A stretch of 64,000 nucleotides of DNA from Marinobacter sediminum (GTDB lineage Bacteria > Pseudomonadota > Gammaproteobacteria > Pseudomonadales > Oleiphilaceae), in the NCBI RefSeq assembly GCF_023657445.1, contig NZ_JAGTWY010000001.1:2232001-2296000 (forward strand), in the 5' to 3' direction. Position numbers and translations under genes: made by a program. Positions 32,790 to 41,240 of the stretch are shown here, in pieces. The notes under the pieces were generated by a model. It had not been told where the DNA came from. It did no database searches and saw nothing but the letters and a program-made list of their open reading frames with translations. The first letter of the stretch is position 1. Each line of letters starts with the position of its first letter.

Positions 32790-32975
32790 CCAGTTTGCAC
32801 CAGCATGAAACATGCTCACCCTGCTTTTGCCTTCTTTTGAGGCGCACCATTCTGATATCCATGAAATAGCACGACGCTGCCCCTTCAGATCTGATCTGCA
32901 AGCCCTTGTCCACAAAGCCATTCTCCGACTGCCATAGCGTTTTGGCACAGATTCCGCTTTACAGAAAGTGACGGA

Positions 32976-32997: not shown

Positions 32998-33007
32998 TGC
33001 TTTTGCT

Positions 33008-33061
33008 TCCGGGACGACCCGGACGGCTCTGACAGCCGCCTTACTGTCTGGACGACCAGAT
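33008..33061 (+). promoter_or_regulatory. Guanidine-II (mini-ykkC) riboswitch
   Basis: Two hairpins share the loop ACGA: 33008-33023 (stem TCCGGG/CCCGGA) and 33046-33061 (stem TCTGG/CCAGA, plus a G-U pair). This is the defining layout of guanidine-II: paired stem-loops with ACGR loops joined by a short linker. The 22-nt linker contains its own small stem (CGGCT/AGCCG, 33024-33038). Immediately after hairpin 2, ACCT (33063-33066) can pair with AGGT of the ribosome site (33079-33082), giving a simple translation-off state that guanidine binding could relieve. The controlled gene starts at 33090. Confidence 0.88.
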
Positions 33062-33089
33062 GACCTTTTGACACAGCGAGGTTATCGAG

Positions 33090-34142
33090 ATGTCAGTAAC
33101 AACCCCCGAGCCCACGGGCCATAGTGCGTTCCAGTCATTACCTGTCGTGGACGTGTCCGGGCTCCAGTCACCCGACCCCAAGGTGCGCCAGTCCAGTGCA
33201 GAGGCGTTGGGTGAGGCAGCCCGCGATGCGGGGTTTCTTTACATCACCGGGCATGGCGTTCCATCTGATCTGGTTGATCGCTTCCGGTCGAGGGTCCGCG
33301 AGTACTTCCGGCAGAGCCACGACGAAAAAATGCGCCAGTATATCGGGCGCTCGGAAAACCACAGTGGTTATGTCCCCGAGGGCGAGGAGCAGTTCTACGG
33401 GGCTGCGATGCCGGACCGGAAAGAAGCGTACGATGTCAATTTCGACATGCTCGAGCCAGAGCATGCCCGCCCAATGCTTGGCCCCAACCAATGGCCCGAG
33501 ATGGCCGGTTTCAAGACTGACATCAAGGCCTATTACGATGCCGTCTTCGAGCTGGGCAACCTGCTTTTCCGCGGTTTTGCCCTGGCCCTGGGGCTTCCCG
33601 AGGACAGTTTCACCCGACACATTAACCGACCGCCCAGCCAGCTGCGCCTGATTCACTACCCCTATAACCCCGATATTCCGACGGATGCGCCCGGCATCGG
33701 GGCTCATACGGACTACGAGTGCTTCACCATCCTCAGGCCGACAGCCCCAGGGCTGGAGGTGATGAATGGGGCCGGAGAATGGATCGATGTTCCGGTGTTA
33801 GAAGACGCTTTTGTGATCAACATCGGCGATATGATGGAGATCCTCAGCAACGGCCTGTTCATCGCGACCTCACACCGGGTGCGCAAGGTCGCTGAAGAGC
33901 GCTATGCCTTCCCCATGTTCTGCAACCTGGATTACGACACTCGAATTGAACCGCTGCCGCAATTGGTCAGCGAAGAGCGCCCTGCCCGTTATGAGCCCCA
34001 GGTCTGTGGCGAGCACCTTTTTGCCCAGACAGCCCAGACCTTCCAATACCTGAAAAAACGCCTGGAAAGTGGCGAACTGGAATTGCCGAAAGGCAGCAAG
34101 GGGCTGTCATCCTTCGGCCGGGAAGCCGGAGGCCAGCGATGA
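33090..34142 (+). CDS. Isopenicillin N synthase-like 2-oxoglutarate/Fe(II) dioxygenase
   Basis: A 350-residue non-haem iron oxygenase, first gene of the riboswitch operon. The N-terminal DIOX_N region contains DAGFLYITGHGVP; the Fe-binding HxD is in IGAHTDYECFTIL (about residues 206-218), the distal His in IATSHRVRKV (about 265-274), and RYAFPMF supplies the 2OG-binding Arg. Relatives hydroxylate or desaturate small molecules, and some act on guanidino amino acids to release free guanidine. The start ATG has GAGG 8 bases upstream. It overlaps the next gene by ATGA. Substrate unknown; context suggests a guanidino compound. Confidence 0.9.
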   Translation: MSVTTPEPTGHSAFQSLPVVDVSGLQSPDPKVRQSSAEALGEAARDAGFLYITGHGVPSDLVDRFRSRVREYFRQSHDEKMRQYIGRSENHSGYVPEGEEQFYGAAMPDRKEAYDVNFDMLEPEHARPMLGPNQWPEMAGFKTDIKAYYDAVFELGNLLFRGFALALGLPEDSFTRHINRPPSQLRLIHYPYNPDIPTDAPGIGAHTDYECFTILRPTAPGLEVMNGAGEWIDVPVLEDAFVINIGDMMEILSNGLFIATSHRVRKVAEERYAFPMFCNLDYDTRIEPLPQLVSEERPARYEPQVCGEHLFAQTAQTFQYLKKRLESGELELPKGSKGLSSFGREAGGQR

Positions 34143-35080
34143 GCCTGCAAGCACTGGTCGACCAATTCACGTATTCGCCGAGCCACAGCGTGCCGGACTG
34201 GATGTTGGGTTGCTTCCGACGCCGCTGCATCAGCTTCGCCAACGGTGAGTCAGATAACCAGACCATCGTGTTCTGGTTTCAGAGCCGGAACTTCACGATC
34301 GACCTGCGTCTGCCCCTTGGGGTCGAGCAGGTACGTGCAGCGGAACTGGAGGATTACAGCGCGACCGAACTGGCGGTGCTGGCAAATTATGAAGGCTGGG
34401 TCGCGTCCTGTGACTGGACCGACGAAAAGATGTCCTGGCACGGCGGCACGGCGCTGCAGACCACAGACCGCTGGCCGGAACCGGCCGAGCTGCACCGCAT
34501 TGGCAACTGCATGATCGAGTTCGCGCCCAGTGGCGCCTACGTGGAGGACTGGCGCCTGCAGCCGTCGGAGTCTGGACCACTGATTGGCCTTCGACTGGTG
34601 GAAGAGTATGACCCGGATACAGGGCAACGATTTCCCCGCGACGGAGGCCTGATCATCTGTGGTGATCACGCCGCCTGGGTGCTGGGACGGTCCGGGCCCA
34701 TCGCCGATACCACTTCGTCTTTGCCAGAGCGGGCGGCCGGCGCCGTCGGAGACCGGGAGCGCCTGCAGCCGCTGTTCGACTTTGAAACGTCCGTGGCATC
34801 GGGGTCACTGGCGCAGGGATACACGGTACTTCATTCCACCCGGCCCGGCCGCGTGGGCCAACCGCTGCTCCCAGCAGGCAAGTTCGACTGGATCGAAGAC
34901 ACCAGGCGCGTGGAACAGACCTTCTCTCTCGACGGGCAGGACCGGGTTCGGGTGTTTGAGGTGGACGTTATCGAACCAAGCCATGGGTTTGCCCTGGAGA
35001 CGCCATCCAGCGAGGAGGCCGACGGATGGTTCCAGCGCGAGTCCAACACACTTGGCCGCTACACCGAGGTACTGTTATGA
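34139..35080 (+). CDS. Hypothetical protein of unknown family in the guanidine operon
   Basis: A 313-residue soluble protein that I do not recognise. It is rich in Trp and aromatic residues in its first half (FWFQSRNFTIDLRLP, NYEGWVASCDWT, VEDWRLQPSES), predicted mostly beta, and might form a calycin- or cupin-like barrel, but no metal motif is evident. There is no signal peptide. Four-base overlaps on both sides tie it to the oxygenase and the GNAT-like gene, so it likely works in the same step. Confidence 0.8.
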   Translation: MSLQALVDQFTYSPSHSVPDWMLGCFRRRCISFANGESDNQTIVFWFQSRNFTIDLRLPLGVEQVRAAELEDYSATELAVLANYEGWVASCDWTDEKMSWHGGTALQTTDRWPEPAELHRIGNCMIEFAPSGAYVEDWRLQPSESGPLIGLRLVEEYDPDTGQRFPRDGGLIICGDHAAWVLGRSGPIADTTSSLPERAAGAVGDRERLQPLFDFETSVASGSLAQGYTVLHSTRPGRVGQPLLPAGKFDWIEDTRRVEQTFSLDGQDRVRVFEVDVIEPSHGFALETPSSEEADGWFQRESNTLGRYTEVLL

Positions 35081-35646
35081 CTGCCCTCGCCTTACGGGAC
35101 GAAGGTTTCCGACCACTACCGATCAATGATTTTCCGGTCCCGGCGATGTGGCGTGGCGAGTGGGCCCTGCTGGTTCCCGCCGCCCCCGAATGGGTCGAAC
35201 TGGACTACGCGGCGGTGATCGAAAGCCGCAGCAAACTCAAGCATATCTTCGGCCCCCGGGACGACTGGCCACCCGATGATCTCGACGCTGACATGGACGA
35301 GGCCGACCTGGCCTGGCATGCACGGGAATTCTCAAGCCGCAGCTCATTCGCCTATCACCTGCTGAGCCACGACCGGCAACGCTGCCTGGGCTGTCTTTAC
35401 CTGTATCCAACGGCCAGCAGAAACCATGATGCCGAAGCCTATCTCTGGACCCATATCGGACTCACTGCCTCTCAGGCAAACCTGATCGAAGACGAAGTCA
35501 TTGGCTGGGTCAGCCGGGACTGGCCCTTCAGATCCGTTGCATGGCCGGGGCGATTCATACCTTTCACGCAATGGGAGAAAGCCGACATACCCAATTACTA
35601 CGCCAGCATCCGGATGATCGCAGATCCATCCGCTACCGGGGACTGA
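35077..35646 (+). CDS. GNAT-fold-like protein in the guanidine operon
   Basis: A 189-residue protein. The region SFAYHLLSHDRQRCLGCLYLYPTAS and AEAYLWTHIGLTASQANLIEDEVIGWV resembles the GNAT acetyltransferase core (strands 4-5), but the pyrophosphate-binding R/Q-x-x-G-x-G/A signature is not obvious. It may be a degenerate or unusual acyltransferase. ATG at 35077 overlaps the preceding stop; the longer frame to 35026 is rejected for that reason. It is followed by a small hairpin and then the binding-protein gene. Confidence 0.72.
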   Translation: MTALALRDEGFRPLPINDFPVPAMWRGEWALLVPAAPEWVELDYAAVIESRSKLKHIFGPRDDWPPDDLDADMDEADLAWHAREFSSRSSFAYHLLSHDRQRCLGCLYLYPTASRNHDAEAYLWTHIGLTASQANLIEDEVIGWVSRDWPFRSVAWPGRFIPFTQWEKADIPNYYASIRMIADPSATGD

Positions 35647-35659
35647 CATGAACCTACCT

Positions 35660-35675
35660 CGAGCGCACGCGCTCG
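35660..35675 (+). terminator. Possible attenuator between enzymes and binding-protein gene
   Basis: CGAGCG-CACG-CGCTCG followed by GGCCTTTTGCTTT lies in the 67-base gap after the GNAT-like gene. It is a short stem with a short T run, compatible with a partial terminator that would set a lower or higher level for the downstream half of the operon. It could also simply stabilise an mRNA end. Confidence 0.35.
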
Positions 35676-35713
35676 GCCTTTTGCTTTATCGACTCGAAAC
35701 CAGGAGTTCAACT

Positions 35714-36787
35714 ATGAAATTAATGAACCGAACCATCACCGCTACAGTTCTCTCCGCGCTATTTGTACTTGGCGCTTCATCCGCCCAGGCCGAGGAGGAC
35801 CGGAAACAGTTCTCTCTCGCATGGTCGATCTATGTTGGCTTTATGCCATGGGCCTATATGGATGAGTCCGGCATCATGGACAAGTGGGCCGACAAGTACG
35901 ACATTGAAGTCGATCTTGTTAAGGTCAACGACTACATCGAAGCCATCAACCTCTACACCGCCGGGGAGTTCGATGGGGCCACCATGACCAACATGGACAT
36001 GCTGACCATTCCGTCGGCATCAGGCGTTGATACCACCGCGCTGATCACCGGTGACTTTTCCGACGGCAATGATGCTGTTGTTCTGAAAGGCCGTGACAGC
36101 ATGGAAGACATCAAGGGTATGGATGTTTACCTGCTCGAGCTTTCCGTATCCCACTACGCACTGGCCCGCGCCCTGGAGATGGCCGGTCTGAGTGAGCGCG
36201 ACATCAACGTGGTCAACACCTCGGATGCCGACATTGCCACCGCTTTCACGACCGACGACGTGCAAGCTGCCACTCTCTGGAACCCACAACTCCAGACCGC
36301 AATGCAGGAACCCGATGCCGTCAAGGTATTCGACTCTACCCAGATCCCCGGTGAAATCCTCGACATCATGGGCGTTAACTCTGAAACCCTGAAGAAGTAT
36401 CCGGAGCTGGGCAAGGCGGTGACTGGAGCCTGGTTCGAGGCCATGAGCGTCATGCATGGCGACAGCGAGCAGGCCATCGCCGCCAAAACCTACATGGGCG
36501 ATGCGTCCGGAACCGATCTGGACGGCTTCGAATTGCAACTGGCCGCCACTCACATGTTCGAGACCCCTCAGGAGAAACTCGACTTCCTGACCACCAAGCG
36601 GGTGCGCGAAACCATGGACTTCGTGACCAAGTTCTCCTTCAAGCACGGGTTGCTGGGCGCCGGTGCCCAATCACCGGACGCCATCGGTATCGAGTTGCCT
36701 GATGGCTCCATCTGGGGCAACGAAGACAACGTCAAAATGCGCTTCGACCACCAGTTCGTAAAAATGGCGGCCGAAGGGAAGCTGTAA
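35714..36787 (+). CDS. ABC transporter periplasmic binding protein, urea-carboxylase-associated type
   Basis: A 357-residue exported protein with a Sec signal peptide (MKLMNRTITATVLSALFVLG, cleavage near AQA-EED). The mature part has SIYVGFMPWAYMDESGIMDKW and DGATMTNMDMLTIPSA, features of the nitrate/taurine-type binding proteins found beside urea carboxylase and guanidine genes. The ATG at 35714 follows CAGGAG; the longer frame to 35648 is not supported. No permease or ATPase gene is in the window. Context suggests a guanidino ligand. Confidence 0.88.
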   Translation: MKLMNRTITATVLSALFVLGASSAQAEEDRKQFSLAWSIYVGFMPWAYMDESGIMDKWADKYDIEVDLVKVNDYIEAINLYTAGEFDGATMTNMDMLTIPSASGVDTTALITGDFSDGNDAVVLKGRDSMEDIKGMDVYLLELSVSHYALARALEMAGLSERDINVVNTSDADIATAFTTDDVQAATLWNPQLQTAMQEPDAVKVFDSTQIPGEILDIMGVNSETLKKYPELGKAVTGAWFEAMSVMHGDSEQAIAAKTYMGDASGTDLDGFELQLAATHMFETPQEKLDFLTTKRVRETMDFVTKFSFKHGLLGAGAQSPDAIGIELPDGSIWGNEDNVKMRFDHQFVKMAAEGKL

Positions 36788-36790
36788 ACC

Positions 36791-37627
36791 ATGTATTCGG
36801 GCTACTACCAGCGCGCGGCCGACTTGGCCGGCGCTGACCCAGTTGTCTGGGAACGTCTGACCTGGAGCGGCTTGCAGCAGCTTCGCGAACAGGGTGAGGA
36901 ACTGGTTGTCCTGCCCGTGGGTGCGACCGAGCAGCATGGCCCCCATCTGCCGGTCTCAACCGACACGGCCATTGCCACCGCAGTCTGCGCCTATGGCTCG
37001 GCCCGGGCCCGTGTGCCGGTGTTGCCGACCCTGTCCTACGGGGTGTCGGTCGGACACACGGAACAATGGCCTGGCACGGTCTCCCTCCTGCACGAGACGC
37101 TCGCTCTGAGCGTCCGGGAGATGGTGGGCTGGCTGGTAGCCCAGGGCTGGCGCCGGATCATTCTGGTTAACTCGCATTTTGGTAACCACGCCACCTTGTC
37201 TGTGGCAGTGGACCGCCTGCGGTTCGACTACCGGGAACTCATCCAGATTGGCCTGGTAAATTCCTACGCCCTGACCCGGGAGATTGAAGACTATTTCACC
37301 TGCGACGGCGAGGACATCCACGCCAACCGGGCCGAAACCGACCTGATGCTGTACCTGGACCCGGAGGCCTGCGACATGGCATCCGTTCAGGACGATCCGG
37401 ATCGCACGGAGGGCACGGTATTCAGCTACCTGGTGCCGGCCACCAGCAAAAACGGCGTCACCGGACGACCCAGTGAAGGCACGGCCGAACGTGGACGAGA
37501 ACTGTTGCGGGAGATGGGAGAGGCTCTCACGTCGCTGCTGATAAAAGCCCGGACCGAGACTGCACCGCTCGAGACTCAGTCCGCCGGTCACCCCACCGTC
37601 TATCCCTTTTCGGGCAGTCGTCCCTGA
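36791..37627 (+). CDS. Creatininase-family amidohydrolase
   Basis: A 278-residue creatininase-family protein, 3 bases after the binding-protein stop. The metal site is visible: LPVGATEQHGPHLPVSTDT (about residues 40-58; Glu, His, Asp), LVNSHFGNHA (His), and NRAETDLMLYLDPE (Glu). Creatininase opens cyclic creatinine; other members hydrolyse formamides and similar amides. In a guanidine-regulated operon, hydrolysis of a cyclic or acylated guanidino compound is plausible but unproved. Confidence 0.9.
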   Translation: MYSGYYQRAADLAGADPVVWERLTWSGLQQLREQGEELVVLPVGATEQHGPHLPVSTDTAIATAVCAYGSARARVPVLPTLSYGVSVGHTEQWPGTVSLLHETLALSVREMVGWLVAQGWRRIILVNSHFGNHATLSVAVDRLRFDYRELIQIGLVNSYALTREIEDYFTCDGEDIHANRAETDLMLYLDPEACDMASVQDDPDRTEGTVFSYLVPATSKNGVTGRPSEGTAERGRELLREMGEALTSLLIKARTETAPLETQSAGHPTVYPFSGSRP

Positions 37628-37656: not shown

Positions 37657-39102
37657 ATGTCTGAAAGTTCGCCTAAGAACCGTTTGATCGACGCCGGCAG
37701 CCCGTCTCCCGGTGTCGGTCCCGATCTGGAAATCGATCACGGCCGTGTCGCGGCCATGAAAAAGACCTTGATGGACGCTGGTGTGCAGTACTGCTACGCC
37801 TCCTTCGTCGATGTGCATGGCGTTCCCAAAGCCAAATGCACGCCCATCGAAAAATTCGAGAAGATGTGTGCCGGCTCTGAGTTGTTCACCGTCGGCGCCC
37901 TGGAAGGTATGGGGCTGACCGGCCCCCAGGAAGACGAGTGCGCAGCAGTGCCGGACCTGGATACCTGCACCATCTTCCCCTGGGACAAAACCCAGGCCTG
38001 GTTCACGGGTGAGCTCTACTATCATGGCAAGCCCTATCCGAATGACAGCCGCAGTATTCTCAAGCGCATGGTTGCGAAGGCGGAGGCGCGCGGGTACCGC
38101 GTGAATCTGGGTATCGAACCCGAGTTCTACCTTCTTCGCCGGGATGAAGACGGCAACCTGACGCCACTCGGTTCAGACTTCAAGGGCGTCTGCCCGGCTT
38201 ACGACCTGAATCAAACCACGGAAGTGCTCGATACGCTGAATCAACTCGCCCAGTATATGGACGAGTTGGGCTGGAACCTCTACTCCTTCGATCAGGAAGG
38301 CGGCCGGGGCCAGTACGAGTTCGATTTTGGTTACACCGATGTACTCTCCAGCAGTGATCAGTTGATCTTTCTGAGGCTGATGCTCAAGCGGCTGGCCCAT
38401 GACAATGATGCCGTGGCCACGTTTATGCCCAAGCCATTTGCCGATGACTTCCGCAGCGGCGCGCATTTCAATATCTCACTGGAGGAAATCGAGACCGGCA
38501 AGAACATCTTTGCGCCCGGCCCGGACGGCCCCGGCGAGCTCGGCGAGCGTTACGGACTGAGCTTCGCCGACAAGGCCCTGCACTTTACCGCCGGCCTGCT
38601 CAAACACGCACCGGCACTGACCGCGCTGACCTGCCCCACCTACAACAGCTATCAGGGCCTGATTGCCCAGGGCGATATGGCCGATATGAGCTGGGCACCG
38701 GTGCTGATGTCCTATGGCCAGAACAACCGCTCGGCCATGTTGCGACTGCCGGCCAACCGCTACTGTGTTGAGAACCGCGTGCCGGACATGAGCTGCAACC
38801 CCTATCTGGCGGCTGCATTTCACATTGCCGCTGGCCTTGAGGGTATCGATCAGGCCATGGACCCCGGAGCGCCGCACAACGAGAACGCCTACACCCTGGG
38901 CAACACACTGCGGGAAAAACGCCAGCACCTGCTGCCCCGTACTTTGCTTCATGCCCTGGAAGCCTTCGATGACGATCCGCTCGTGGAAGAGATTTTCGGC
39001 GACTTCAAGGAGATTTACCTGAAGCAAAAACTGGGTGAATGGGAGTCCGCGTTCTACACCATCAACGAGGAACACCGGGAACAGAAGCTGACGCACATCT
39101 GA
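37657..39102 (+). CDS. Type III glutamine synthetase-like ligase (GlnT/GMAS family)
   Basis: A 481-residue glutamine-synthetase-fold ligase of the GlnT type, which includes gamma-glutamylmethylamide synthetase. Motifs include VNLGIEPEFYLLRRDEDG, DQEGGRGQYEFDFGYTDVL, GAHFNISL and NNRSAMLRLPANRYCVENRVPD. It should join an amine to glutamate using ATP. As it lies in a riboswitch operon rather than with glnK or amtB, the amine may be a catabolic product such as methylamine or ammonia. It lies 29 bases after the creatininase gene. Confidence 0.88.
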   Translation: MSESSPKNRLIDAGSPSPGVGPDLEIDHGRVAAMKKTLMDAGVQYCYASFVDVHGVPKAKCTPIEKFEKMCAGSELFTVGALEGMGLTGPQEDECAAVPDLDTCTIFPWDKTQAWFTGELYYHGKPYPNDSRSILKRMVAKAEARGYRVNLGIEPEFYLLRRDEDGNLTPLGSDFKGVCPAYDLNQTTEVLDTLNQLAQYMDELGWNLYSFDQEGGRGQYEFDFGYTDVLSSSDQLIFLRLMLKRLAHDNDAVATFMPKPFADDFRSGAHFNISLEEIETGKNIFAPGPDGPGELGERYGLSFADKALHFTAGLLKHAPALTALTCPTYNSYQGLIAQGDMADMSWAPVLMSYGQNNRSAMLRLPANRYCVENRVPDMSCNPYLAAAFHIAAGLEGIDQAMDPGAPHNENAYTLGNTLREKRQHLLPRTLLHALEAFDDDPLVEEIFGDFKEIYLKQKLGEWESAFYTINEEHREQKLTHI

Positions 39103-39129: not shown

Positions 39130-40017
39130 ATGTCCTCAACCATAGCCACCGAAAACTGGCACAACTGGGAAGCGTTCTATCAGGCCCAGCGGGAGACCGA
39201 GCTGCCCGCTGGTTCTGTGGCCCATGTTCCGGTGAAGATTCGCTATATCGATGCTGGCACAGCCAACGACAAAACCGTCGTTCTGCTACACGGCATCCCC
39301 ACCTGGGGCTACCTGTTTCACGAGGCCATCCCGGCTCTGGTGGATGCCGGGTTCAGGGTGATTGCTCCCGACCTTCTGGGCCATGGCTTTTCCGACCGGC
39401 GCGACTGCTTTGACCGCTCCTTTCAGGATCAGGCGCGCATGGTCGTGGCGCTGCTCTCGGACCTGGGGCTCACCAGTGTCGACCTGGTGGGGCATGACAC
39501 CGGCGGGGCTGCAGGTCTGATCCTGGCCATAGAGCACCGCCACCTGATCGACCGGCTGGTGATCTGCAATTCGGTCTGTTACGACCGCTTTGACGATGAC
39601 ATGCTCGACTTCGGCCATCCCATGCGCTGGAAGCCACGGCCAGTCTCAGACCTGATGGAAGCTCTGGAGGAAAGCCTCGCGATGGGCTTATCGGATTCAA
39701 CCCGGCTGACCCCGGAATTCCGCGCCGGCATCCTGGCGCCCTGGTCCAGCGAAGAAGGTAAGCTCAGCCTGATCCGCAATGCCTCTGCGCTTAATGCCAA
39801 CCAGACCATGGCACTGGTGGATCGCCACGGCACCATCGAAGCGCCCACCCTCGTGCTCTGGGGCATGGATGACCCCTGGCAGAGCGCCGAGGACGGCCAG
39901 CAACTGGCCCGGGAGATTCCCGGCGCACGATTTCAGGCGGTCAATGGTGCATCCCACTGGTTGCCGCAGGATGCGCCTGACGCCTTCAACACAGCCGTGA
40001 TGAATTTTCTGATGTGA
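39130..40017 (+). CDS. Haloalkane dehalogenase-like alpha/beta hydrolase
   Basis: A 295-residue alpha/beta hydrolase. The oxyanion motif HGIPTWGYLFHE and the nucleophile elbow VGHDTGGAAG (Asp nucleophile) are present, with the acid in LWGMDDPWQ and the catalytic His in GASHWLPQDAP. An Asp nucleophile places it in the epoxide hydrolase/haloalkane dehalogenase group. It lies 27 bases after the ligase gene in the riboswitch operon. Its substrate is unknown. Confidence 0.85.
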   Translation: MSSTIATENWHNWEAFYQAQRETELPAGSVAHVPVKIRYIDAGTANDKTVVLLHGIPTWGYLFHEAIPALVDAGFRVIAPDLLGHGFSDRRDCFDRSFQDQARMVVALLSDLGLTSVDLVGHDTGGAAGLILAIEHRHLIDRLVICNSVCYDRFDDDMLDFGHPMRWKPRPVSDLMEALEESLAMGLSDSTRLTPEFRAGILAPWSSEEGKLSLIRNASALNANQTMALVDRHGTIEAPTLVLWGMDDPWQSAEDGQQLAREIPGARFQAVNGASHWLPQDAPDAFNTAVMNFLM

Positions 40018-40026
40018 GGAGCAAAA

Positions 40027-40788
40027 ATGCGCATTGCCGACCGATGGTTTGAAACAAAACGCGTAGACGATCGAATCACATTACTATGGGAGCCCCACGT
40101 TGCCCGACTGGACCAGTGCAACATGTGGCACGTTCGCGGCCGCGATGCGGACCTTTTGGTGGACGCGGGAATGGGTATCAGCAGTCTGAAAGAGGCGATG
40201 GCCGAACTTCTAGATAAGCCGCTCATTGCTGTTGCAACGCACAGTCACACAGACCATGTGGGCAGCCTGCATGAATTCGATCATCGCCTTATTCACCCGC
40301 TGGAAGCCGAACAGTTAAACCAGCCGGACACCTTTCCCGTGCTCTGCAGCTGCCATTGGCCAGCCGGCCTGCGCGAGTCTATCCAAAGCCAGGGTTATGA
40401 AGTGCCGGATCTCATGATCGACGCATACCCCCACGAAGGCTTCGATCCCATGGCCTTTAGCGCAACAAAGACCGAGCCGACCAAACTTATCGATGAAGGC
40501 GACGTGCTGGATCTCGGCAACAGTGCCTTTGAAGTCCTGCACCTGCCAGGACACTCCCCTGGCAGCATCGGCCTGTGGGAGAAAGCCACCGGAACCCTGT
40601 TTTCCGGTGACGCGATCTACGACGGCCCATTGCTGGATGACATCGAGGGCGCCGACCGGCAGGCATACAGAAGAACCATGGAACGATTGCGGAAACTCCC
40701 CGTCAACGTGGTTCACGGCGGCCACGATCCCAGCTTTGGCAAGGCGCGCCTGCAGGAACTGGTTGATCAGTACCTGCATAGCCGCTGA
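40027..40788 (+). CDS. Metallo-beta-lactamase-fold hydrolase
   Basis: A 253-residue MBL-fold protein. The metal motif HSHTDHVG (HxHxDH), the later HLPGHSPGS and GDAIYDG segments, and HGGHDPSFG near the C-terminus fit a two-zinc hydrolase. It is 9 bases after the alpha/beta hydrolase and is the last plus-strand gene of the operon. Relatives hydrolyse lactones, thioesters or amides. Substrate unknown. Confidence 0.88.
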   Translation: MRIADRWFETKRVDDRITLLWEPHVARLDQCNMWHVRGRDADLLVDAGMGISSLKEAMAELLDKPLIAVATHSHTDHVGSLHEFDHRLIHPLEAEQLNQPDTFPVLCSCHWPAGLRESIQSQGYEVPDLMIDAYPHEGFDPMAFSATKTEPTKLIDEGDVLDLGNSAFEVLHLPGHSPGSIGLWEKATGTLFSGDAIYDGPLLDDIEGADRQAYRRTMERLRKLPVNVVHGGHDPSFGKARLQELVDQYLHSR

Positions 40789-40792
40789 AACG

Positions 40793-40810
40793 GCCGGTCA
40801 GTTGACCGGC
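40793..40810. terminator. Hairpin at the convergent end of the guanidine operon
   Basis: GCCGGTC-AGTT-GACCGGC is a perfect 7-bp stem lying between the MBL stop and the end of the convergent lipoprotein gene. There is no T tract, so it is a weak terminator at best. Confidence 0.45.
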
Positions 40811-41106
40811 TGACAACCACGAACGGCGAGCGCAATATTTGCACTGGCCTTGATCTGTTCGTAGTACTTGGACGCCGAGTTGACACCCATCTCGGCATAG
40901 CTGCCAGCAGCGGGACTTACGAGCCTGCTCAGCTGCGCCAATGCATCCGCAGATTGCCGGTCCCGCTGATACGCATCAAACGCCTGGTAAATCTCACTGC
41001 AGGTGACACCATCACCGTCCGTCGCTGCGGAGCTCATGTAGGTGGATGTCTGGCAGCCAGACAGGAGTGTGGCAGTTGCAATGACAAACAGAAAAGAACA
41101 CTTCAC
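40798..41106 (-). CDS. Small hypothetical lipoprotein
   Basis: A lipoprotein of about 102 residues. The N-terminus MKCSFLFVIATATLLSGCQ has a clear lipobox (LLSGC). The mature part has two further cysteines (VTCSEIY and VRGCQPVN) that may form a disulfide. It probably sits in the outer membrane. Start is uncertain: the GTG at 41106, 10 bases after GGAG, gives the best signal peptide; TTG codons at 41112 and 41115 are alternatives. Family unknown. Confidence 0.72.
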   Translation of the reverse strand: MKCSFLFVIATATLLSGCQTSTYMSSAATDGDGVTCSEIYQAFDAYQRDRQSADALAQLSRLVSPAAGSYAEMGVNSASKYYEQIKASANIALAVRGCQPVN

Positions 41107-41240
41107 AGGCAACAATCTCCAGGATTAAAACAACAAGGATAAGCTTTTCAGAATACTACCAGTCTCAGCACCGCGCATGCCCGACAATTCCGGGAATTGC
41201 CGGTGATTGGCACTGGCATTGTGGCCAGTGTGATCACTAC

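Follow-up and report, generated by a model that had tools for sequence, protein, structure and literature searches.

An initial annotation of the 64,000-nucleotide stretch of Marinobacter sediminum DNA analysed here (the window) placed a guanidine-II riboswitch ahead of an operon without known guanidine enzymes, and took it to mark a candidate new guanidine-linked pathway. Is the element a riboswitch, and what would the operon under it do? The sequence comparisons described below make it very probable that this is a guanidine-II riboswitch in the leader of a Marinobacter operon for the use of methylguanidine as nitrogen, the functions of RNA and enzymes being predicted ones.

The twin-hairpin element

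The two stem-loops with ACGA loops described in the initial annotation were located on the forward strand. P1 spans 33008-33023 (pairs 33008-33013/33018-33023, TCCGGG-ACGA-CCCGGA, loop 33014-33017) and P2 spans 33045-33062 (pairs 33045-33051/33056-33062, loop 33052-33055). P2 has seven pairs, two of them G-U, and ends 27 nt 5' of the ATG at 33090. Both loops are of the ACGR type and both are closed by G-C pairs. The gap between the stems, previously given as 22 bases, is 21-23 nt, the exact value varying with the number of P2 pairs included.

The 8-mer GGACGACC is by itself unremarkable, with five copies in the window against 2.45 expected. When both strands were scanned for pairs of G-C closed ACGR hairpins (stems of at least 5 pairs, 5-60 nt apart), a single site was found in the 64 kb, and none in 100 dinucleotide shuffles. 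The Rfam model RF01068 could be aligned from end to end (1-48) to 33006-33060, scoring 25.4 bits (E 0.0063 in the 701 bases searched). The covariance-model search proposed with the original claim was thus positive in its end-to-end alignment and negative in its score, which stayed below the gathering threshold of 32 bits (set in curation, and not a structural feature); a comparison of the whole window with Rfam at gathering score gave no match. The alignment carries seven inserted bases within the linker, which are a likely cause of the low score.

The element has in common with the RF01068 class the two G-C closed ACGR stem-loops at this distance, their position directly before the ribosome site, and a guanidine-related gene context. 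It differs from the model in its longer linker, which is able to form a third hairpin behind P1, and from the usual members in preceding mgdH instead of gca or sugE.

Conservation and covariation of the leader

Relatives of the first gene, which is mgdH-like, are encoded at 79 loci, of which 66 could be assessed for twin hairpins upstream. These were present within 300 nt in 25 of the 66, in Marinobacter, Haliea, Pseudomonas (13), a Burkholderiales MAG, Colwellia (2), Psychromonas, Thalassolituus, Psychrobacter (2), Acinetobacter (2) and a Cellvibrionaceae strain. Among the 41 homologues without a guanidine-II element within this distance, 23 sit no more than 400 nt behind a gene on the same strand for a substrate-binding protein (SBP, 10), an MgdL-like protein (3) or gca (10), and 18 are not accounted for in this way. 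By-eye inspection of 250-base stretches at L121-L123, three loci added by a class-wide search (see below), revealed no guanidine-II element; the gene at L121 is on the minus strand, and its stretch came from the wrong side. A rule that mgdH always stands under a guanidine-II switch was rejected, as mgdH clusters are found behind guanidine-I switches in Hyphomicrobium and in a Rhodopseudomonas MAG.

In M. segnicrescens (NZ_FOHZ01000020.1) the P1 and P2 hairpins are identical letter for letter to those of the window, against a background of divergence farther upstream. The Rfam model was run on the genomes that carry 50 of the 79 loci, and by contig position its matches lie directly upstream in 12 (L041, L042, L045-L049, L051-L053, L055 and L056). 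Eleven of these scored 22.6-24.9 bits, and the orthologous leader of Pseudomonas mandelii RIT-562 (L056) reached 33.0 bits, which is above the gathering score. A shorter match lies upstream at L043. At E 1e-100 only four of the 369 class genomes, that of M. sediminum included, have mgdH relatives. An exact-pattern scan of the 369 genomes gave no matches; the 60-nt linker of the reference genome itself exceeded the range of the pattern.

Covariation in P1 and P2 was tested with 15 of 26 leaders (180 cells, 500 shuffles). Standard pairs occupy 93.9% of the cells, and 11 cells have double changes. The paired percentage, the number of double-change cells and the covariation score were each reached by none of the shuffles. 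Two weaker measures, pairs changed on both sides and further pair types, were reached by 5 and 74 of the 500, respectively. Both stems covary among the orthologous leaders.

A chance pair of hairpins, or a different control element upstream of the oxygenase gene such as an attenuator or a protein site, would fit an Rfam score under gathering. Against this stand the empty shuffles, the recurrence of the same element ahead of more than a third of the assessed homologues, the covariation of both stems and the presence of a guanidine regulon in the genome (see below), and we regard such an origin as scarcely credible. The guanidine-II claim, for which the Rfam score alone is sub-threshold, finds its support in the conservation of the leader, in the covariation and in the gene context. 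Judged by its structure, covariation and orthology, the element at 33008-33062 is a genuine guanidine-II (mini-ykkC) riboswitch, for which ligand binding is predicted.

The linker hairpin

Directly behind P1 the linker can form a hairpin, CGGCU/AGCCG (33024-33038), which like the sigma54-type element described below is absent from the initial annotation. A helix of at least four pairs that starts no more than one base away from P1, with a 6-9 nt tail behind it, occurs in 13 of 14 non-redundant leaders, compared to a mean of 2.2 and a maximum of 7 of 14 in 2000 shuffled linker sets; the limits were set after the data had been seen and individual leaders often do little better than chance (eg L043, L047), so that the figure is optimistic. 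The sequences of the helix vary widely between genera, and in M. segnicrescens both sides have changed, to CGGCG/CGCCG.

As a control, 20 regions around other guanidine-II matches of the same genomes were inspected, their genes being named by eye from the N-termini, and a linker could be parsed in 18. Fifteen of these linkers are 14-20 nt long and have no helix (before gca, cgd, other genes and one sugE). The remaining three, in Pseudomonas sugE leaders (L124-L126), are 20-21 nt long and have a helix of five pairs. Because these sugE leaders share the helix, the hairpin was rejected as a hallmark of mgdH switches; it goes with longer linkers, not with mgdH.

Expression signals

A Shine-Dalgarno sequence (SD), GAGG, is located at 33078-33081, 8 nt before the ATG. 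The pairing against the ribosome site that the initial annotation had thought possible was found: AUGACCU (33060-33066) can pair with AGGUUAU (33079-33085), which overlaps part of GAGG. Nucleotides 33060-33062 are common to this pairing and P2, and the putative SD-masking helix (33060-33085), proposed from sequence and folding, would exclude the full P2. From P2 to the start codon, the fold of the window's leader has -15.0 kcal/mol with P2 and -11.9 kcal/mol when the 5' side of P2 is blocked, ie the P2 fold is the more stable state. The leader of M. segnicrescens folds better without P2 (-13.9 kcal/mol) than with it (-13.0 kcal/mol). The 3' side of P2 finds an alternative partner at or beside the SD in seven of the 12 leaders folded, and the other five are ambiguous. 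Since the ribosome site or the start codon is still partly paired in several of the folds with P2 forced, that of the window included, the direction of gene control that we propose is taken from the riboswitch class.

Upstream of P1, at 32943-32957 on the forward strand, is TGGCACAGATTCCGC (GG-N10-GC), which we take to be a sigma54-type promoter element. The start of a sigma54 transcript is expected about 12 nt beyond the element. The pattern TGGCAY-N7-GC is present in 17 of the 26 leaders, compared to 0.29 expected from shuffles, a pattern picked after being noticed and having nine matches on both strands of the whole window. It is absent in nine leaders, and in two it lies 139 nt from P1. 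An element of this type would tie expression of the operon to nitrogen limitation. No report linking guanidine, sigma54 and a riboswitch was found among the matches listed in a literature search covering a minority of subscription papers. Scans for sigma70 promoters (3 vs 2.2 expected) and terminators (6 vs 6.7 expected) gave numbers at about the chance level. A terminator-like stem at 35659-35676 falls between the gene for a 189-aa protein and the likely SBP start, in a region where such sites occur at chance frequency.

The oxygenase and predicted lyase genes

The first gene (33090-34142, forward strand, as are all the operon genes below) encodes a 350-aa protein with DIOX_N and 2OG-FeII_Oxy matches. 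A methylguanidine oxygenase pathway was published in 2025 (PMC12508155). That paper names Vreelandella and Salinisphaera; in a term search of it Marinobacter was absent and Pseudomonas appeared in the references only. MgdH of V. boliviensis hydroxylates methylguanidine, and MgdL, the gene for which directly follows mgdH, splits N-(hydroxymethyl)guanidine and requires D49 and R51 (PMC12508155). On account of the strain, the gene order behind gca and the presence of D49 and R51, we infer that the proteins encoded at L096:9965-11026 and L096:11026-11778 in V. boliviensis LC1 are the MgdH and MgdL of that report.

The first gene product is 53% identical (179 of 335 aligned residues) to the oxygenase of V. 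boliviensis LC1. In an alignment of seven rows H206, D208, H262 and R271 are invariant, and these are presumably the Fe/2OG residues. The RxS motif serves in 2OG binding; at 33900-33908 the window's protein has R271-Y272-A273, where the six other rows have R-Y-S. On this evidence the first gene is an mgdH orthologue, with hydroxylation of methylguanidine (2OG/Fe(II)-dependent) as its predicted activity.

The second gene (34139-35080) encodes a 313-aa protein, compared to 250 aa for the lyase of V. boliviensis. Its identity to MgdL of L096 is 25% (pairwise E 3e-5), with D55 and R57 aligned to D49 and R51; a profile comparison matched MgdL at 97.3% with an E value of 2e-11. Intermediate sequences from L063, L066, L100 and L104 connect the two proteins. 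The aspartate and the arginine are conserved in all 41 loci whose relative aligns over that stretch. An AlphaFold2 model of the 313-aa protein is strand-rich with a mean pLDDT of 82.3. MgdL itself has been modelled as a beta-barrel (PMC12508155). A profile search of the PDB with the MgdL-like protein found nothing. The second gene product is a remote, long-form relative of MgdL which keeps both catalytic residues, and it is predicted to be an N-(hydroxymethyl)guanidine lyase.

An identity of 53% is no proof of the same substrate, and the change from RxS to RxA may be added to this, so that the switch could stand before an oxygenase that releases guanidine from another compound, eg homoarginine, arginine or another alkylguanidine. 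The nearest solved chain is that of an ethylene/succinate-forming enzyme, and the superfamily includes guanidine-releasing plant enzymes as well as ethylene-forming enzymes (PMC12508155). However, the window, like many homologous loci, encodes an MgdL relative directly next to the oxygenase, and the same operon contains a guanidine-type SBP. We therefore consider a different substrate quite improbable, and methylguanidine is retained as the predicted one.

The substrate-binding protein and the guanidine regulon

A 189-aa protein without a Pfam match is encoded at 35077-35646. M. segnicrescens and Haliea have its gene at the corresponding position, and only in these two among the 79 compared loci does a protein of this kind lie between mgdL and the SBP. 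The next gene (35714-36787; longest reading frame from 35648, start set by comparison with L041) encodes an ABC SBP of family TIGR03427, the urea/guanidine-carboxylase SBP family, with 493.3 bits against a curated cut-off of 333.9. It is the sole relative of its kind in the 3.88 Mb genome (E 1e-8).

Elsewhere in the genome a guanidine-I switch precedes cgdA-cgdB-gca, and a second one, about 1.4 kb behind gca, precedes genes for an ABC permease and ATPase. A search of this gca/permease/ATPase region for an SBP gave none, and in another Marinobacter (L212) and in M. segnicrescens (L211) an SBP is located behind gca. Because no SBP was found at the permease/ATPase locus and the genome has a single one, the permease and ATPase, encoded about 0.43 Mb away, probably work with the SBP of the mgd operon.

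The operon was previously described as being without known guanidine enzymes, a description contradicted by the MgdH orthologue, the MgdL relative and the TIGR03427 SBP; nor is the oxygenase pathway a new one, having been published already (PMC12508155). The window shares with mgdH-mgdL of V. boliviensis LC1 the adjacent lyase relative with its active-site aspartate and arginine, and an SBP of the same family. In V. boliviensis, however, mgdHL lies behind gca in one large operon with a guanidine-I switch at its head and a guanidine-II switch before gca (PMC12508155), whereas in the window mgdHL heads its own operon directly behind the guanidine-II switch and gca is elsewhere. What is new, apart from the genes discussed in the next section, is this stand-alone arrangement of mgdHL under a guanidine-II switch; neither the switch nor the first two enzymes represent a new kind.

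The creatininase-like/glutamine-synthetase-like pair

The new part of the operon, not mentioned in the initial annotation, is a pair of genes behind the SBP. The first (36791-37627) encodes a creatininase-like amidohydrolase (Pfam Creatininase, 4.8e-61), which at 123.2 bits misses the TIGR04448 creatininase cut-off of 235 bits and is assigned to the wider amidohydrolase family only. The second (37657-39102) encodes a ligase like the type-III glutamine synthetases (GS), whose 442.1 bits just miss the TIGR03105 cut-off of 469.6; the homologue in L177 scores 650.8. They are followed by an alpha/beta hydrolase gene (39130-40017), probably also an operon member, and a gene for a hydrolase of the metallo-beta-lactamase fold (40027-40788), which is the probable operon end: the next sizeable reading frame (40798-41115) is on the opposite strand.

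Relatives of the amidohydrolase (E 1e-40) were found in eight of the 369 class genomes besides that of M. sediminum, and a relative of the GS-like gene adjoins in all eight. All eight homologous regions, of 8-17 kb each, were examined. Six have a guanidine-I or guanidine-II switch at gathering score (none in L175 and L176), and seven contain cgd and/or gca genes (not L175). The order SBP-permease-ATPase-creatininase-GS-cgdA-cgdB-gca is seen in six regions; extra genes are interspersed in L177 and L178, and in L180 the SBP and permease lie beyond the contig stretch. In a Rhodopseudomonas MAG (L104) a guanidine-I switch is followed by SBP-mgdL-mgdH-permease-ATPase-creatininase-GS. The gca/cgdAB clusters (L173, L174, L176-L178 and L180, with L179 in part) thus share the pair and the SBP with the window, and guanidine riboswitches are found in most of them, as in the window. 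The pair follows the ABC transporter in those clusters, whereas in the window it follows mgdHL and a lone SBP.

In L177 (3581-5395) genes for a fatty-acid-desaturase-like and a xylose-isomerase-like (AP_endonuc_2) protein are flanked by a guanidine-II switch on one side and a guanidine-I switch on the other, another possible guanidine-linked pair. A gene pair similar by eye occurs in L175 (6470-7483 and 8300-9142), with no guanidine switch at gathering score.

It is conceivable that the operon functionally ends after the SBP and that the creatininase-like, GS-like and hydrolase genes, inserted in this strain, have nothing to do with it: the operon of M. segnicrescens and Haliea stops there, with an opposite-strand gene next, and the four later genes are missing. 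Only 3 nt separate the SBP gene from the creatininase-like gene in the window, however, and there is no change of strand up to 40788; the neighbouring gca and cgd genes in the other regions and the position of the pair behind mgdL-mgdH in L104 likewise make an insertion unlikely. Because of its recurrence beside cgd and gca genes and the arrangement in L104, the pair is, as far as gene neighbourhood can tell, a guanidine-linked module.

On a plain reading the GS-like ligase would capture released ammonia, which leaves the amidohydrolase unexplained. A tentative alternative, possible although we would not call it probable, is that the pair is an undescribed dedicated step of (methyl)guanidine use, with the work in the genome split between guanidine-I and guanidine-II switches. 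As such a step the pair may set methylguanidine or guanidine free from a precursor resembling creatinine, or alternatively it may form a gamma-glutamyl intermediate and then split it. The origin of methylguanidine in nature has been called elusive, apart from abiotic formation from creatinine (PMC12508155). Were the pair a dedicated step, it would provide methylguanidine with the biological source that is missing, or with a side branch; the guanidine-I switches would read guanidine (carboxylase, permease/ATPase), and the guanidine-II switch guanidine and methylguanidine (demethylase, SBP).

In a literature search covering a minority of subscription papers, no publication was found that ties creatininase to guanidine riboswitches, or that joins guanidine carboxylase, glutamine synthetase and a riboswitch. 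For ykkC together with creatinine amidohydrolase there was none among the matches listed. By term counts, creatinin- and glutamine synthetase are absent from PMC12186494, PMC7266159 and PMC11410670.

Guanidine-II elements before efflux genes

A second guanidine-II-like element in the genome (L001, G000:C1:279120-279169, minus strand; 28.6 bits, below the cut-off) stands directly before two genes for transporters of the PACE family (BTP, 'chlorhexidine efflux'). Guanidine-II matches (E 0.02) are present in 68 of the 163 family genomes. Among the best 30 loci (L181-L210), the gene behind the match is gca in 11, SugE-like in six and a PACE homologue in 13, and because of these 13 the PACE proteins are candidate guanidine exporters. 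A link between guanidine-II and PACE was reported neither in the publications listed by a search covering a minority of subscription papers nor in the passages of PMC10149990 consulted.

A proposed model for the operon

Under nitrogen limitation the transcript would be made from the sigma54-type promoter. Without ligand the 3' side of P2 may pair with the region of the ribosome site, to which the folding lends weak support, and translation would be low. With guanidinium or methylguanidinium, by analogy with the class, P1 and P2 would dock loop to loop, P2 would be held and the ribosome site would open, allowing MgdH, MgdL and the SBP to be produced. The guanidine-II switch of V. boliviensis binds guanidine and methylguanidine alike, and its guanidine-I switch only guanidine (PMC12508155). 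MgdH would then hydroxylate methylguanidine and MgdL would split the hemiaminal to guanidine and formaldehyde, reactions which were shown for the Vreelandella enzymes (PMC12508155). The guanidine would pass to CgdAB and guanidine carboxylase, encoded elsewhere under the guanidine-I switch.

In Marinobacter, Pseudomonas and other bacteria, predicted methylguanidine demethylation would thus be separate from the gca operon and have a guanidine-II switch to itself. This arrangement allows a clear test of whether guanidine-II switches are methylguanidine sensors. It also brings to light an unexplained enzyme pair that recurs in guanidine clusters, and this while the origin of methylguanidine in nature is called elusive (PMC12508155).
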